A stretch of DNA of 23,109 nucleotides from a virus, in the IMG/VR virus record IMGVR_UViG_3300027759_002865, positions 1 to 23,109 of that record. One strand, written 5' to 3'. Within the stretch, counting starts at the first letter, position 1; every line of letters starts with the position of its first letter. The position numbers and the translations under genes were made by a program. Under the pieces are notes generated by a model that was not told where the DNA came from, did not search any database, and worked only from the letters and a program-made list of their open reading frames with translations. Positions 6,456 through 14,763 of this stretch are shown here, in pieces.

Positions 6456-7032
6456 TTATTTCCGGAACTTTTTTACTCGTTCTTTGATAAGTCCAACCAC
6501 TTGGTCGCTGAGCACTACTTCATAGTGGTTGCAGTTCTACTTCTATTAGTTCCATATCCTCATGATGCTTCTGACTGGCTATGGTTACCACGCCGTCATT
6601 GGGCTCATGCATGAATGGACTTTGGCCTTTAACTGTTACAATGTTAGTCCAAGGGTGCTGTATTTTAATCTTATCTGCTTGCCTCATTACCCACGAGCTG
6701 GGACCAATGTCTCGCATCAGTCTGCTGAAGGGCAAGAAGTATTGAGCATAGTCTGCTACTTCTGCGCCACCATAGGGTGTGCTTAGAGTAACAGCACCTT
6801 TAACAGCATTAGGCATTGTATTAGCTAGGTGCAGGCTGTAAATACCGCCTAGGCTATGAGCAATGAACACTATATCAGTGTAATTACTCAATGCTGACTG
6901 CATGTCTTTTAGGTTATTCTCAAACCCATTGCGACTGTCGTAGTTGATATCTACTCCGTTGCCTAATTTACTTCTAATATAATTGAAGCTTTCGCTGGTG
7001 GCATTAGCTCCGTGAATGTACACCAAGTTCAT
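6456..7032 (-). pseudogene. Alpha/beta hydrolase (lipase-like), frameshifted near its end
   Basis: The frame from 7032 encodes LVYIHGANAT (oxyanion-hole region), the nucleophile elbow AHSLGG with S60, and PNDGVVT with the probable acid D146: a lipase/esterase-type alpha/beta hydrolase. It stops at TGA 6522-6520 after ELIEVELQPL and lacks the catalytic histidine. Skipping one base (the C at 6531 on the minus strand) opens the next frame to TAA at 6458-6456. That adds NHYEVVLSDQVVGLIKERV and five more residues, which supplies a histidine in exactly the expected position. The gene is therefore a one-base frameshift from intact: mutation, sequencing/assembly error, or less likely programmed shifting, since no slippery heptamer is visible. 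If active it would be a cytoplasmic esterase/lipase, because no signal peptide is present. Confidence 0.8.
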
Positions 7033-7491: not shown

Positions 7492-7776
7492 ATGAAACTT
7501 CGCACCAGATCGATTCTGCAGGAACTTAATAGTATTGCTGATGTACGTAGTACAGACTCTCTAATCGAAAGTCGTGCCACTAACATCATTAATTCTGCAA
7601 TTAATCTGCTGGAAAGCATCCACAAGCACTACGATGCTGAAAGTGCTGATGAGTTAGAGCGTAGACTAATTAATGCTATCAAAGGACAAGATCCTGCTAA
7701 ATTTACACGTGGTGTGCGTAGGATTGCAGAGTCACGTAAACAACGAAGAAAACTAGATGAAAGCAATGACAACTAA
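7492..7776 (+). CDS. Small basic helical protein, possible head/core protein, 94 aa
   Basis: This protein has an N terminus MKLRTRSILQE followed by a predominantly helical, Arg/Glu/Asn-rich chain ending in KQRRKLDESNDN. The start resembles the T4 capsid-targeting peptide (short basic-hydrophobic segment ending in L-x-E, here LQE at 9-11), so a prohead-core or internal protein is possible but unproven. No enzymatic motif or membrane segment is visible. GGAAAC lies about 5 bases before the start as a modest ribosome site. Its 3' end overlaps the nucleotidyltransferase gene by 20 bases, indicating coupled translation with that enzyme. Confidence 0.78.
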   Translation: MKLRTRSILQELNSIADVRSTDSLIESRATNIINSAINLLESIHKHYDAESADELERRLINAIKGQDPAKFTRGVRRIAESRKQRRKLDESNDN

Positions 7777-8578
7777 TCTATTTGAGGGCGGCAACGTATT
7801 CAAAGGCCCGGATAAAGAACCATTAACACAGCGCATCGCTACCAAAGATGTGCCAGCGACCATTGACTTTATTGAAAAGGTCACAGGATTAGATTTCACT
7901 AAAGAACTAGACCCAGATGACAAAAAACCAGTAAAGTGGCTAGGCACCACAGGGCGTAAAGAAGATCCGGATGGCACATTTGAATTAAACAGTTCAGGCG
8001 ACCTAGATCTTAGCGTAGATGCCAACGAAGTAGACAAAAAAGAATTTCAAGCCAAGCTGGTTGCACAGTTTGGTAAAGACTCAGTTAAATTAAGCGGCGA
8101 CAGCGTACATTTAAAAACACCAATTGCAGGTGATCAAGTCAATGGCTTTGTGCAAGCTGACTTTATGTTTTCGGCTAATCCGAAGTTCCAACAGGGCAGT
8201 ATGATTGGTGGACGTGGTTCTTATCGCGGTGAACATCGTCATATTTTATTGAGCAGTATTGCTCGTGCTAGAGGATTAAAGTATAGTCCAAAGTTTGGAT
8301 TGTTACATGCAGATACCAGCGAACCATTAGAGAACGGTGATGACTGGAATACTATTGCCAAACAGTTACTAGGACAAACTGCCACAGTTAAAGATGTAAA
8401 AAGTGTAGACGGCATCATCGCCTACATTATCAAATTACCTAACTATGATGAGTTAGTAGCAGGTGCTAGAGAAACACTGGGTAAACAGGGCATTGAACTG
8501 CCAGTTAAAGAAGCATTTGAAAGTTACGTGCCAGGTAGCAATGCTTGGATGCGTAGAATGATTAATATTGTAAAATGA
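7757..8578 (+). CDS. Nucleotidyltransferase, DNA polymerase beta superfamily-like
   Basis: This 273-aa protein has a nucleotidyltransferase core signature: LGTTGR (62-67) as the glycine-rich helix start, SGDLDLSVD (80-88) with the metal-binding pair D82 and D84, and VQADFM (132-137) with a plausible third carboxylate, D135. Members transfer nucleotides to RNA, small molecules or proteins; the acceptor is not evident. MTTNLFEGG at the N terminus contains an LxE-G step like a T4 prohead-protease site; an alternative start is ATG 7766. A basic middle part (RGSYRGEHRHILLSSIARARGLKYSPKFG) may bind the acceptor. It overlaps the upstream gene by 20 bases and shares an ATGA with the downstream ligase-like gene, so the two enzymes are probably made and used together. 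Confidence 0.78.
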   Translation: MKAMTTNLFEGGNVFKGPDKEPLTQRIATKDVPATIDFIEKVTGLDFTKELDPDDKKPVKWLGTTGRKEDPDGTFELNSSGDLDLSVDANEVDKKEFQAKLVAQFGKDSVKLSGDSVHLKTPIAGDQVNGFVQADFMFSANPKFQQGSMIGGRGSYRGEHRHILLSSIARARGLKYSPKFGLLHADTSEPLENGDDWNTIAKQLLGQTATVKDVKSVDGIIAYIIKLPNYDELVAGARETLGKQGIELPVKEAFESYVPGSNAWMRRMINIVK

Positions 8579-9672
8579 GATTCTGGGAAATATTAACTGA
8601 AGCTGAAGCACCTGCTCCTAAGAAGGTAGGCAGAGAATTCAACCACCTAGAAGATCTAGTGTTCACAGAAGCTGATGGTGCTGTTCGTGCTATCAAAGTA
8701 TTGAAAGATCTAGCCAGCCCGGAAACCAGCATCACAATCAAGTGGGACGGCAATCCCACAGTATATTGGGGCAGAGACGATGATGGTACATTCCGCTTAG
8801 TAGGTAAAAACAACTGGGGCCGTGAAGAAGGCAAAAGCTCTAGCCCAGAAGAACTTGCAGGTTTTATCAATAGCAGAGGCAAGGGCGAAGAATGGCGTGC
8901 CAAGTTTGCCGGAGATATGGCTGCTCTATGGCCCGTATTTGAACAAGCAACTCCTGCAGATTTCCGTGGTTATGTCTACGGTGATATCCTATTCCACCCA
9001 GGCAAACCATATCAAGGCGGCGACGGACGCATAAGTTTTACTCCTAATCAAACAACCTATTCAGTAATTGGCAGTAGCCAAATTGGTAGAGAATTGGCCA
9101 AGGCCAAAGTAGCAGTGGCCGCACACAAACTCTTTAGTTACTTTGGAGACAAGAGCGGTGAGGATTTTACAGATCCTGATCAGTTTAGTACTAATCCAGA
9201 ATTGAAAGTATTTGGCCTAACCAGTGTCAGCCATAGACCAGCTGTTGGCGCAGAGAATCTTGCCAAAATCGAAGTGCTGGCCAAAATGCAACCAGCTATT
9301 AACAAACTACTAGCACCAGTGGCAGGCATGGGCTATTTACAAAGTGAGATCTATACATTTGTTAACACTCAGAGTAAAGCCAAACAACTAGATAAAATCA
9401 ACACAGAAGCTTTTATGGCCTTTGAGCAAAAGACTCCTGCAAAAGCAGCCAAAATACAAGCACACAGCGAATCACATCCCGGCGTAATGGACAAGATGTT
9501 TGAGCTAGTACGTGAAATTATGGCGGCCAAAGACGAAGTAATCCGTGAGTTAGATAGTGCAGGAGGCGACATCACTGCCAGCACAGGTGGTAAACCTGGC
9601 GGTGAAGGCTATGTTGCAGGCGGTACAAAACTAGTTCCACGCGATCGTTGGACTCCATTTAGAGCCGATTAA
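8575..9672 (+). CDS. Ligase-like protein with KxDG motif
   Basis: This 365-aa protein contains ITIKWDGNPTVYWG, in which K56-W-D58-G59 matches the KxDG nucleotide-attachment motif of DNA/RNA ligases and capping enzymes. YGDILF (135-140) resembles motif III, and a C-terminal EGYV followed by TKLVPRDRW resembles the motif IV/V pattern, though its distance from motif III is larger than in ordinary ligases. If active it would form a covalent Lys-nucleotide intermediate and join or modify nucleic acid ends. I recall similar KWDG proteins as uncharacterised in marine T4-like phages. The N terminus MRFWEILTE-AEAPAP closely resembles the T4 capsid-targeting peptide with a prohead-protease site after LTE. 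It overlaps the nucleotidyltransferase stop by ATGA. Ligase activity is inferred. Confidence 0.75.
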   Translation: MRFWEILTEAEAPAPKKVGREFNHLEDLVFTEADGAVRAIKVLKDLASPETSITIKWDGNPTVYWGRDDDGTFRLVGKNNWGREEGKSSSPEELAGFINSRGKGEEWRAKFAGDMAALWPVFEQATPADFRGYVYGDILFHPGKPYQGGDGRISFTPNQTTYSVIGSSQIGRELAKAKVAVAAHKLFSYFGDKSGEDFTDPDQFSTNPELKVFGLTSVSHRPAVGAENLAKIEVLAKMQPAINKLLAPVAGMGYLQSEIYTFVNTQSKAKQLDKINTEAFMAFEQKTPAKAAKIQAHSESHPGVMDKMFELVREIMAAKDEVIRELDSAGGDITASTGGKPGGEGYVAGGTKLVPRDRWTPFRAD

Positions 9673-10346: not shown

Positions 10347-10751
10347 ATGCCACGCTATCGTATTATCACACTTGTCGACATTACTAGGACCAATCCACAT
10401 AGGTCTGAAACTGATACACTGAAACTTCGTCAACAGGCCAATTTTAACAGCCTACTACAGGCCATTGGTCTACGAAGCAACGTACAATGGGTGCGAGATC
10501 CTATAATGAGCAAGGGTAGTCTGCCCTATGATATAGGTGGCAAAGCCCATCATTGGAGTTGGGAGTTTGATGTTGAACGCGACGATGTTTTTTTACGTGA
10601 CAACAATTCTGTTGGCCTACTAATTGATGATTTACACGGCGTCCCAATCATAGCTAATTTAACTAATTCTGTAGACATAGACCCTGCTTGCTTTATTAGC
10701 AAAGGTGATCAAGCCAATATTTGGGTCCGTGATATAACCAATTCAATATAA
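10347..10751 (+). CDS. Conserved-type phage hypothetical protein, 134 aa
   Basis: This protein starts MPRYRIITLVDITRTNP and contains LKLRQQANFNSLLQAIGLRSNVQW (about 26-49), a middle WSWEFDVERDDVFL (about 70-83), and a C-terminal part with GVPIIANLTNSVDIDPACF. The mix of strands and a single helix suggests a compact alpha/beta fold, but no catalytic motif is seen. Its position among late structural genes and its late-type promoter suggest virion assembly or a head/tail completion role. Its stop codon TAA (10749-10751) lies inside an exact TATAAATA promoter for the next gene. I recognise the general look of the family from marine phages but no function. Confidence 0.8.
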   Translation: MPRYRIITLVDITRTNPHRSETDTLKLRQQANFNSLLQAIGLRSNVQWVRDPIMSKGSLPYDIGGKAHHWSWEFDVERDDVFLRDNNSVGLLIDDLHGVPIIANLTNSVDIDPACFISKGDQANIWVRDITNSI

Positions 10752-11693: not shown

Positions 11694-13205
11694 ATGAGAA
11701 CAACAGAACTTTTTAAATTTAATAGATCTCCTAAAAGACTAAATGAATCTTTGGAAAAACTATTCGGCAACAAAATTGATTTCGCTACCTTTGACACAGC
11801 CAAACTGGAAGATGCACGTAACAAGCTACGTACACAGATCAGCCAAGTTCGAGGCCAAAGTGGATTCACTGAGGATCTAGATAACGAAGCATACACCAAA
11901 GCACAGTTCATGCACGATGCTATTGTTGCTGAACTAGCAGATCGTCAAGAGTACATTGTTGGTACTGAAGATCAAGAAGGTATTGAACAGGAAGCTGTAG
12001 TAGCTGAAGCATACTCATATGAAGAAATCGCACAAAAAGTATATGATGAACATCCTGACCTACCAACCAGTGGACGTGGCGATGAATTTTTCAGCGCCGC
12101 ATGGCCTTACATTCTAGAACTTGCTGGCGGTAGTAAAAAACGTGCCAACTATATGTTAAATTATGATGAAGATTTTCCAGCTGACCTAATCAGTGCTTAT
12201 CACGACTTACAAAAACAAGGTCATGAAGTTGGTGAAGCAGGTTATCAACACGGGTTTGCTGATCCTCATGCTCCGAGCCTTGGTTCGCAAGACAAACGCG
12301 ACTTTAAACGTGCTGAACTACAACACGAACTAGGTCATGAAAAGAATAACATCCAAGTTTCTATCAATGGTAAGCCTTGGAAAGTATTTGCTGGCAAAGG
12401 TACAGCAGACAGCCCAGAAGAATATCGTCATTTACAAAGCATGAAACACTGGGCCGAAAAGAAATCAGCAAGCTCAGGCAAGAAGTGGTCAGTGAGTCTA
12501 ACTGGTGCTGAACCTTCGGAAAGCATTCAGTCTGAAAAGTTTGATCCATTAAAGCATGTCAACAATCCTACACAAGGTGAGAAAGATGCTGCCAAAGATG
12601 TCAAGCGTGGTAGCTATGGCGACCGTGCCGCAATGTTAAAATCTGCAGAGAATGACGGCAGATTAAAGAAAGATAAAAACGAAAGCATAAACACAGGAGA
12701 AGATATGCGTAATCTAAGAGAAGGTGAGATCCAGCAAGCTTCTGCGATCGTCACAGCAAAAACAATGGTGGACAGAGTAGGTCGTTGGATTGAAGAACTT
12801 TCTGGTATGGAGAATGACACTCTATTACAGTTAGGCGACAGTATCCGTGATGAAATGGGCCAAGAACAAGCCAAGGCATTCATTGAAGCCGTTGCTCCAG
12901 CAATTCAACAGGCTTTAGAAAATCTAAAAGCCACCCGCGATACACTTTCAACAGGCGTTCGTAGTTTGGCCAGCGGTGAGCAACCAGCAGATATGCTAGG
13001 CGGCGAGCCAGGTGCCGAATCAGGTGCTGATGATATGGCAGCTGAACCAGACATGATGAACGCAGAGCCAGGTGCAGACATGGGCGGAGAAGAAGATGCA
13101 TTTGCCGCAGCTGAGCCAAGCACAGGTGGTGCAGAAGAAGCAGGACGTGAGCAACGTGAAAGCATCCAACGTAGCAATCGTTTGATGAAACTTCTAGCAG
13201 GTTAA
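11694..13205 (+). CDS. Candidate prohead core/scaffold-type protein with internal start
   Basis: This 503-aa, very charged, largely helical protein has three parts. Residues about 1-95 are basic-acidic helices (with RLNESLEKLF, LEDARNKLRTQIS). Residues about 105-300 form a more globular part (EEIAQKVYDEHPDLPTSG, YPYILEL-like helix, DFKRAELQHELGHE). The C-terminal part from about 338 is a helical segment (ASAIVTAKTMVDRVGRWIEEL) followed by an acidic Ala/Gly/Glu/Met low-complexity tail ending RSNRLMKLLAG. This resembles phage prohead-core proteins. An internal ATG at 12705 (residue 338) carries its own AGGAGA site five bases upstream and may give a 166-aa C-terminal product. HELGH (210-214) looks like a zinc-protease HExxH-type string but is only HxxGH, so I do not call it a protease. 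Core assignment is inferred. Confidence 0.7.
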   Translation: MRTTELFKFNRSPKRLNESLEKLFGNKIDFATFDTAKLEDARNKLRTQISQVRGQSGFTEDLDNEAYTKAQFMHDAIVAELADRQEYIVGTEDQEGIEQEAVVAEAYSYEEIAQKVYDEHPDLPTSGRGDEFFSAAWPYILELAGGSKKRANYMLNYDEDFPADLISAYHDLQKQGHEVGEAGYQHGFADPHAPSLGSQDKRDFKRAELQHELGHEKNNIQVSINGKPWKVFAGKGTADSPEEYRHLQSMKHWAEKKSASSGKKWSVSLTGAEPSESIQSEKFDPLKHVNNPTQGEKDAAKDVKRGSYGDRAAMLKSAENDGRLKKDKNESINTGEDMRNLREGEIQQASAIVTAKTMVDRVGRWIEELSGMENDTLLQLGDSIRDEMGQEQAKAFIEAVAPAIQQALENLKATRDTLSTGVRSLASGEQPADMLGGEPGAESGADDMAAEPDMMNAEPGADMGGEEDAFAAAEPSTGGAEEAGREQRESIQRSNRLMKLLAG

Positions 13206-14067: not shown

Positions 14068-14763
14068 ATGATTATCAGCCCACCACCCTTTGTCGAACGC
14101 TTCCAATATAAAGGCTGCGTTCAGGTCAATGACCCCGTAACACGCAAACGTGTCTACCAAACTCCAGACGGCGAAAGCCTACCCAGCGTAACTACCATTC
14201 TCAGTGCAACCAAAGATATGACGCACTTGAATGAATGGAAGAAACGTGTAGGCGTAGAAAATGCACAACGCATCACTACAGAAGCCGCAGGCGTAGGTAC
14301 TGCCATGCACAGTAACCTAGAAAGGTTTATTGCCGGCATACAACGACAACCAGGTAACAATCCTGTTCATGTGCAGGCCAATAAAATGGCCGATGTTATC
14401 ATTGATCAAGGACTTAGCAAGGTCAATGAAGTTTGGGCTATGGAACAGAGTCTATACTTTCCTGGACTGTATTCGGGCACTACTGATCTAGTAGGTGTCT
14501 ATGACGGCGAACCTGCTGTTATGGATTACAAGCAGACTAATAAGCCTAAAAAAGCAGAATGGGTTGAAGACTACTATATGCAGTTAGTGGCCTATATATT
14601 AGCACATAATGAAGTCTACGGCACAGACATTCGTCGTGGTATTGTGTTTATGTGTAGTCGTGCTTTTGAATATCAACAGTTTGAAGTAAAAGCTGAAGAT
14701 TTTAACAAGTACCAAGACATGTGGCTTAACAAGGTAGAAGAGTACTATGCCCTAGGAAGATAA
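14068..14763 (+). CDS. PD-(D/E)XK exonuclease, RecB/MGME1-like
   Basis: This 231-aa protein has SVTTILSATKDMTHLNEWKKRVG (40-62) as the typical entry segment. VGTAMHSNLERFI (76-88) carries H81 and E85, and YSGTTDLVG contains D140. VMDYKQTNK follows with D153 and K155 (the D-Y-K of the PD-(D/E)XK core), then MQLVAYILAH with Q172 and Y176 (the QxxxY motif of the RecB/Cas4/MGME1 group). It should degrade DNA ends or flaps with magnesium. In a phage this fits recombination, replication repair or host DNA processing. It has its own sigma70-type promoter with a palindromic operator, unlike neighbouring late genes, so it is probably expressed earlier or under damage-type control. No iron-sulfur cysteine set is visible. 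Confidence 0.88.
   Translation: MIISPPPFVERFQYKGCVQVNDPVTRKRVYQTPDGESLPSVTTILSATKDMTHLNEWKKRVGVENAQRITTEAAGVGTAMHSNLERFIAGIQRQPGNNPVHVQANKMADVIIDQGLSKVNEVWAMEQSLYFPGLYSGTTDLVGVYDGEPAVMDYKQTNKPKKAEWVEDYYMQLVAYILAHNEVYGTDIRRGIVFMCSRAFEYQQFEVKAEDFNKYQDMWLNKVEEYYALGR

Follow-up and report, generated by a model that had tools for sequence, protein, structure and literature searches.

The gene pair and its genomic neighborhood

The window, which is the whole 23,109-base viral contig analyzed here, encodes on its + strand a Pol X-like nucleotidyltransferase (NTase) of 273 amino acids (7757-8578), whose catalytic residues D82, D84 and D135 correspond to the codons at 8000-8002, 8006-8008 and 8159-8161. 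It is followed on the same strand by a 365-residue ligase-fold covalent nucleotidyltransferase of the DUF6267 family (8575-9672; hereafter the ligase), with the key residues K56, D137, E344 and K352 encoded at 8740-8742, 8983-8985, 9604-9606 and 9628-9630, respectively. The stop codon of the first gene and the start codon of the second share an ATGA (8575-8578, + strand). In the first set of loci, in which some entries are overlapping pieces of one contig, 144 contain the NTase, the ligase and a small gene upstream of both. About 136 loci retain the 4-nt overlap. In 79 it is present with the ligase start as called; in the other 57 the call uses an upstream ATG (-34 nt), and the conserved MR(A/F) start gives -4.

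The small gene lies directly 5' of the NTase (7492-7776, + strand), matches a PHROG annotated 'virion structural protein', and was found in 125 of the 163 distinct NTase loci examined, many of which are on truncated contigs. Also upstream of the pair, the - strand at 6520-7032 encodes an alpha/beta hydrolase (Abhydrolase_6, 1.7e-6) that is conserved in ~70 loci. Downstream, three + strand genes at 10347-10751, 11694-13205 (a virion structural gene) and 14068-14763 (an exonuclease gene) are homologous to and collinear with PA5oct EST35_0234 (E 6.4e-10), EST35_0237 (E 1e-48) and EST35_0240 (E 1.4e-99), forming a partly syntenic structural block.

Scans of viral contigs revealed hundreds of relatives. 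DUF6267 accompanies the NTase in 245 of 265 NTase loci; the loci without a ligase are mostly explained by contig ends, and in one of them DUF6267 is present at another position of the contig. The two proteins are fused in eight ORFs, in both orders: five are NTase-ligase fusions, one is a ligase-NTase fusion (L272), and two (L280 and L282) are three-domain proteins that begin with a HIGH-type nucleotidylyltransferase-like domain, which matches CTP_transf_like with an E value of 0.005, below the curated cut-off. The earlier note had postulated a coupled pair from the ATGA overlap, and both the overlap and the coupling are borne out by this neighbor survey. We conclude that the NTase and the ligase are a functional unit. 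Strong purifying selection acts on both genes, with pN of 0.09-0.21 versus pS of 0.62-0.76, the latter being near saturation and pN several-fold lower.

In the jumbo phages of the PA5oct group, Phosso and Atu_ph07, the NTase adjoins or lies near a divergent ligase-like ORF that contains KxDG and EG(V/Y)V. Alignment of this ORF to the first DUF6267 columns using hhalign yielded a weak match, which hints at a distant kinship. The Lak megaphages carry an NTase homologue with no evident ligase neighbor, exemplified by Prevotella phage Lak-B5 (L288:5980-6975). S-PM2 (L289:4995-6774) has DUF6267 divided between two ORFs, with a CTP_transf_like domain joined to the C-terminal half. PA5oct EST35_0229 (L287:4638-5657) and DLP_6 AAY80_065 (L150:5076-5993), each beside a ligase-like gene, have similar N-termini and no Pfam match.

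Conserved motifs and folds of the two proteins

The NTase exhibits the motifs G63-T-T-G66, S80-G-D82-L-D84 and Q133-A-D135, and the three aspartates are invariant in 162 of 162 distinct sequences. The G[ST]..GDxD signature together with the third palm carboxylate places the protein in the Pol beta-type nucleotidyltransferase superfamily. Its AlphaFold2 (AF2) model has a pLDDT of 88.7, with residues 1-11 disordered, and the best PDB entries among the matches listed are DNA polymerases beta and lambda (Z of 9.7 over 160 residues), aligned over the palm and the region that follows it. The N-terminal 8-kDa and helix-hairpin-helix (HhH) DNA-binding regions of Pol X are absent: a chain of 273 residues is too short to contain them, and the palm is the first part of Pol beta to be aligned. 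Profile alignment with hhalign brings GS../SGDLD, Q-x-D and FTGS..HN..R..A..KG of the NTase and Pol X into register, a match that is not significant alone (probability 3%, E 0.014 for one pair). Matches of the model in BFVD are mainly unnamed phage proteins, with giant-virus DNA polymerases lower down.

NTase sequence searches of Pfam, PHROGs and the PDB gave no usable match, and no family was assigned. Glyoxalase and Ribonuclease J were rejected as weak chance matches. CCA-adding enzymes do not occur among the top VIA rows listed for the NTase. Other NTase families may still account for the protein, since many Pol X entries crowd these top rows and a CD-NTase is present lower in the Foldseek list. 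No relative was confirmed when genome contigs were searched with the NTase profile, and a bacterial or prophage origin is thus unsupported at that sensitivity.

The ligase matches Pfam DUF6267 (PF19782) with 63.7 bits against a curated cut-off of 27 (E 2.7e-17); all 46 members of alignment A4 match the family as well. It contains motif I (K56-W-D-G59), motif III (G136-D137), motif IV (E344-G-Y-V) and motif V (K352-L-V-x-R356). K56, D58, G59 and D137 are invariant in 151 of 151 sequences, and E344, K352 and R356 in all 145 in which those columns are present. The AF2 model (pLDDT 87.7, residues 1-13 disordered) returned DNA or RNA ligases in all 50 VIA rows, with modest Z values that reach 6.6 at most. 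Such a fold, combined with KxDG and motifs III, IV and V, assigns the protein to the ligase/capping-type superfamily of covalent nucleotidyltransferases. The unusual spacing around motifs IV and V that had been remarked upon in the earlier note corresponds to a mostly helical insertion at residues ~190-330, ahead of motif IV, and to a chain that stops shortly past motif V with no C-terminal OB-type domain. Pfam searches gave no match of the ligase to PF01068 or PF09414, and a PDB sequence search found no relatives. The ligase therefore lacks both features that characterize ATP-dependent DNA ligases, namely a PF01068 match and an OB domain C-terminal to motif V.

Structure prediction, the catalytic residues D82, D84 and K56, and the frequent co-occurrence of the two genes thus all agree with the original reading of a Pol-beta-type NTase beside a KWDG ligase-like protein. 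The idea that the pair serves as the ordinary DNA ligase of the phage was rejected, as two large pair-bearing contigs carry a separate PF01068 ligase; no NAD-dependent ligase was found, and PF09414 (the RNA_ligase family) had no match in the two contigs.

Predicted cleavable leaders and probable association with the virion

Both proteins open with a short disordered leader that ends in [LI]-x-E. The predicted NTase leader, MKAMTTNLFE (7757-7786, + strand), ends in L-F-E and would yield a mature protein starting at GGNVFK, while the predicted ligase leader, MRFWEILTE (8575-8601, + strand), ends in L-T-E. The small upstream gene product also has an L-x-E in its N-terminal MKLRTRSILQE. An [LI]xE directly precedes the NTase body (GGN..) in 150 of 153 distinct sequences, the other three having VFE, while at least 10 different residues occupy the x position and the rest of the leader is variable as well. 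In the ligase, which starts with MR..E.LxE or similar, [LI]xE is found before or near the body in 141 of 161 sequences. The eight fusions carry it at 16 of 16 domain boundaries.

Relatives that have no leader start where the mature protein is predicted to start, the NTases of Phosso and Atu_ph07 with MGG and the cyanophage S-WAM1 DUF6267 with MSKNTHLEHLED; in the related L301 protein, FLLTE is followed by SKNTHLEHLED. As a control, most neighboring gene families have [LI]xE near the N-terminus in 0-7% of their members, and a few others have it often. The merged NTase/ligase cluster scored only 56% in this control because automatic start calls often lie upstream of the conserved start. The possibility that overlap with the upstream gene imposes the LFE of the NTase was rejected, as its codons lie at 7778-7786 and the overlap ends at 7776.

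Many ligase homologues contain an extra module between leader and body, after which some have a second site (e.g., IYE or INE) and some have VNE. This module is KYKSSINCSNPKGFSQKAHCAGRKK in L122:5369-6601, L130, L220 and others, and is replaced by a different CxxC module in L022. In the 353-kb relative G001 (L155-L172), ~12 further ORFs have a similar [LI]xE-ending leader, e.g., 38809-40233, 133582-134763, 136580-137137, 208489-209961, 209963-210871, 269523-270083 and 330925-331455, and include a CTP_transf_like protein and a DUF6321 protein. Judged from these N-termini, the leader-bearing ORFs possibly represent a whole packaged cargo set.

In phage T4, the gp21 prohead protease cuts at L/I-x-E, and a 10-residue leader suffices to route a protein into the head and then into the host (PMC9026906; PMC10229621). 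The packaged cargo of T4 is thought to enter the cell together with the DNA (PMC9026906). Both large pair-bearing contigs encode a gp21-type Peptidase_S77, and their gp23 has KYLAE or KYLSE before SATAGATSAGN; the gp23 of the larger contig is nearest, among named phages, to those of Phosso, PA5oct and GAP32. The pair thus displays two hallmarks of T4-type packaged internal head proteins, an L/I-x-E leader and a gp21 in the phage, with the protease seen in these two large relatives, outside the window fragment.

The PA5oct NTase homologue EST35_0231 is annotated in its record as 'structural protein, ESI-MS/MS', and EST35_0234 and EST35_0237 are PA5oct virion proteins too. For the PA5oct ligase-like protein, the record carries no detection mark. 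As an [LI]xE leader is absent from the NTases of PA5oct, Phosso and Atu_ph07, association of these NTases with the virion would follow another route. Counted from gp18, the Atu_ph07 pair would correspond to gp65/gp66, which places it within the CDS 31-76 cluster; mass spectrometry identified 29 proteins of this cluster (PMC6102473).

Taken together, the motif, the protease, the domain boundaries and the proteomics of a relative make the predicted packaging of the pair well supported. The earlier suggestion that the pair acts at the start of infection is probably correct, for the different reason that the proteins carry capsid-targeting, protease-cleavable leaders. An improbable alternative is that the leaders do not serve as packaging signals or that the proteins are merely structural, such that the pair acts late within the cell or has lost its enzymatic function in the head. 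The leaderless cyanophage DUF6267 and the structural nature of the rest of the gene block would fit this alternative, whereas the invariant catalytic residues, the retention of [LI]xE while x and the other leader residues vary, its presence at every fusion boundary and the occurrence of the PA5oct NTase homologue in virions all argue against it.

Proposed role and comparison with known systems

Our leading, still tentative proposal is that the NTase and ligase are packaged in the head, matured by the protease and injected with the genome, where they mend the incoming DNA. Each newly made protein would bear a short capsid-targeting leader at its N-terminus and enter a T4-type prohead, in which a gp21-like protease would cut both after [LI]-x-E. 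The trimmed enzymes would stay in the mature head and be delivered to the cell with the DNA. There, nucleotide addition by the NTase, at 3' ends or in small gaps, would be followed by sealing of the junction by the ligase through a Lys56-nucleotide intermediate. The incoming genome could thereby be mended ahead of any phage gene expression. For this phage, we infer the cleavage and packaging from the leaders, and injection, enzymatic activity and DNA as the substrate are likewise part of the proposal. The chemistry of the pair would follow from its conserved motifs and folds, with DNA gap filling and sealing as our first choice of activity and RNA repair or host modification as further candidates.

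A DNA substrate is favored by the NTase, whose closest solved structures among the matches listed are DNA polymerases beta and lambda. In contrast, the ligase favors RNA. Its top VIA rows are RNA ligases (Naegleria RNA ligase with Z of 6.6, TbREL1, Trl1 and Rnl2). DNA ligases usually carry an arginine in motif I, and the KWDG-x-P of this protein lacks it. These properties would suit a packaged pair that mends RNA, such as tRNA, after cleavage by host defenses at the start of infection, with the NTase restoring 3' nucleotides and the ligase sealing, and delivery alongside the DNA would be appropriate for such an immediate counter-defense. We regard this as rather unlikely, as the NTase resembles the two DNA polymerases rather than CCA-adding enzymes in the matches listed, and no 5'-kinase/3'-phosphatase partner was recognized in the list of conserved neighbors.

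The missing C-terminal OB-type domain raises a different possibility, that the 'ligase' is a self-adenylating transferase and that the packaged pair serves host takeover by nucleotidylating either host proteins or small molecules. T4 Alt, a packaged enzyme, ADP-ribosylates the host RNA polymerase, so that packaged T4 enzymes provide a precedent for host modifiers, and the third fused partner, CTP_transf_like, belongs to a superfamily that acts mostly on small molecules. Retention of ligase motifs I, III, IV and V and a polymerase-like partner that points to nucleic-acid ends make host takeover quite unlikely.

Mending of the incoming DNA is itself opposed by several observations: the [LI]xE motif is missing from the PA5oct, Phosso and Atu_ph07 NTases and the PA5oct record carries no detection mark for the ligase-like protein; the top rows of the ligase are RNA ligases with Z of only 6.6, and its motif I lacks the arginine; the NTase lacks the 8-kDa and HhH regions and its Pol X profile match is not significant alone; and a conventional DNA ligase is also encoded by these phages. 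The separate DNA ligase also fits a distinct, early, virion-borne role for the pair. With less assurance than the proposal for this pair, giant T4-like phages may be envisaged to pack a DNA break- and gap-repair kit of a polymerase-like and a ligase-like enzyme, to which some add a third nucleotidylyltransferase. The enzymes would be made either as individual precursors or as a polyprotein that the prohead protease divides, and would mend the injected genome before phage genes are expressed.

Literature searches found nothing on DUF6267 and likewise nothing on the cyanophage cytitidyltransferase, and the searchable open-licence papers describe neither a packaged Pol X-like/ligase pair nor two or three nucleotidyltransferases made as a prohead-protease polyprotein. 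Head-packaged enzymes are already known (T4 Alt and the internal proteins); the analysis suggests that the new element is where the pair would act, as enzymes packaged in the virus head via predicted cleavable leaders and injected with the genome. Hundreds of deposited phage records contain DUF6267 relatives with no assigned function, and the Pol X-like partner together with the capsid-targeting/prohead-protease route gives this family a concrete, testable role. Some phages may thus bring their own nucleic-acid processing enzymes into the cell, and [LI]xE boundaries offer a sequence-based reading of T4-type head cargo.

The two proteins resemble the T4 internal head proteins (IPI-III and Alt) in their short N-terminal leader ending in L/I-x-E, and the large pair-bearing contigs have gp21 and gp23 of the T4 type. 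Unlike the T4 proteins, the cargo is a polymerase-like/ligase pair, sometimes a single polyprotein with internal sites, and its cleavage is predicted. The ligase (P0002) is 24-27% identical to the DUF6267 proteins of cyanophages and of Stenotrophomonas phage DLP_6, and K56, D58, G59, D137, E344 and K352 are common to them; the S-WAM1 protein has no leader and adjoins a CTP_transf_like gene where the pair has the NTase. The NTase aligns structurally with Pol beta and lambda (family X) over the palm with GS/T..SGDxD, the third aspartate and the following region, and differs in lacking the 8-kDa/HhH domains, in its extra C-terminal helices and in having no significant sequence match. With ATP-dependent DNA and RNA ligases (Rnl1/Rnl2, Naegleria RNA ligase, T7 and LigIV-type), the ligase has in common the nucleotidyltransferase fold and four motifs (I, III, IV and V); it differs from them in having no C-terminal domain after motif V and a big helical insertion before motif IV. 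PA5oct, Phosso and Atu_ph07 exhibit the same NTase/ligase-like pairing, with a ligase-like protein that is too diverged for a DUF6267 match and is annotated as hypothetical or 'structural', and the PA5oct gene order is common to the window.
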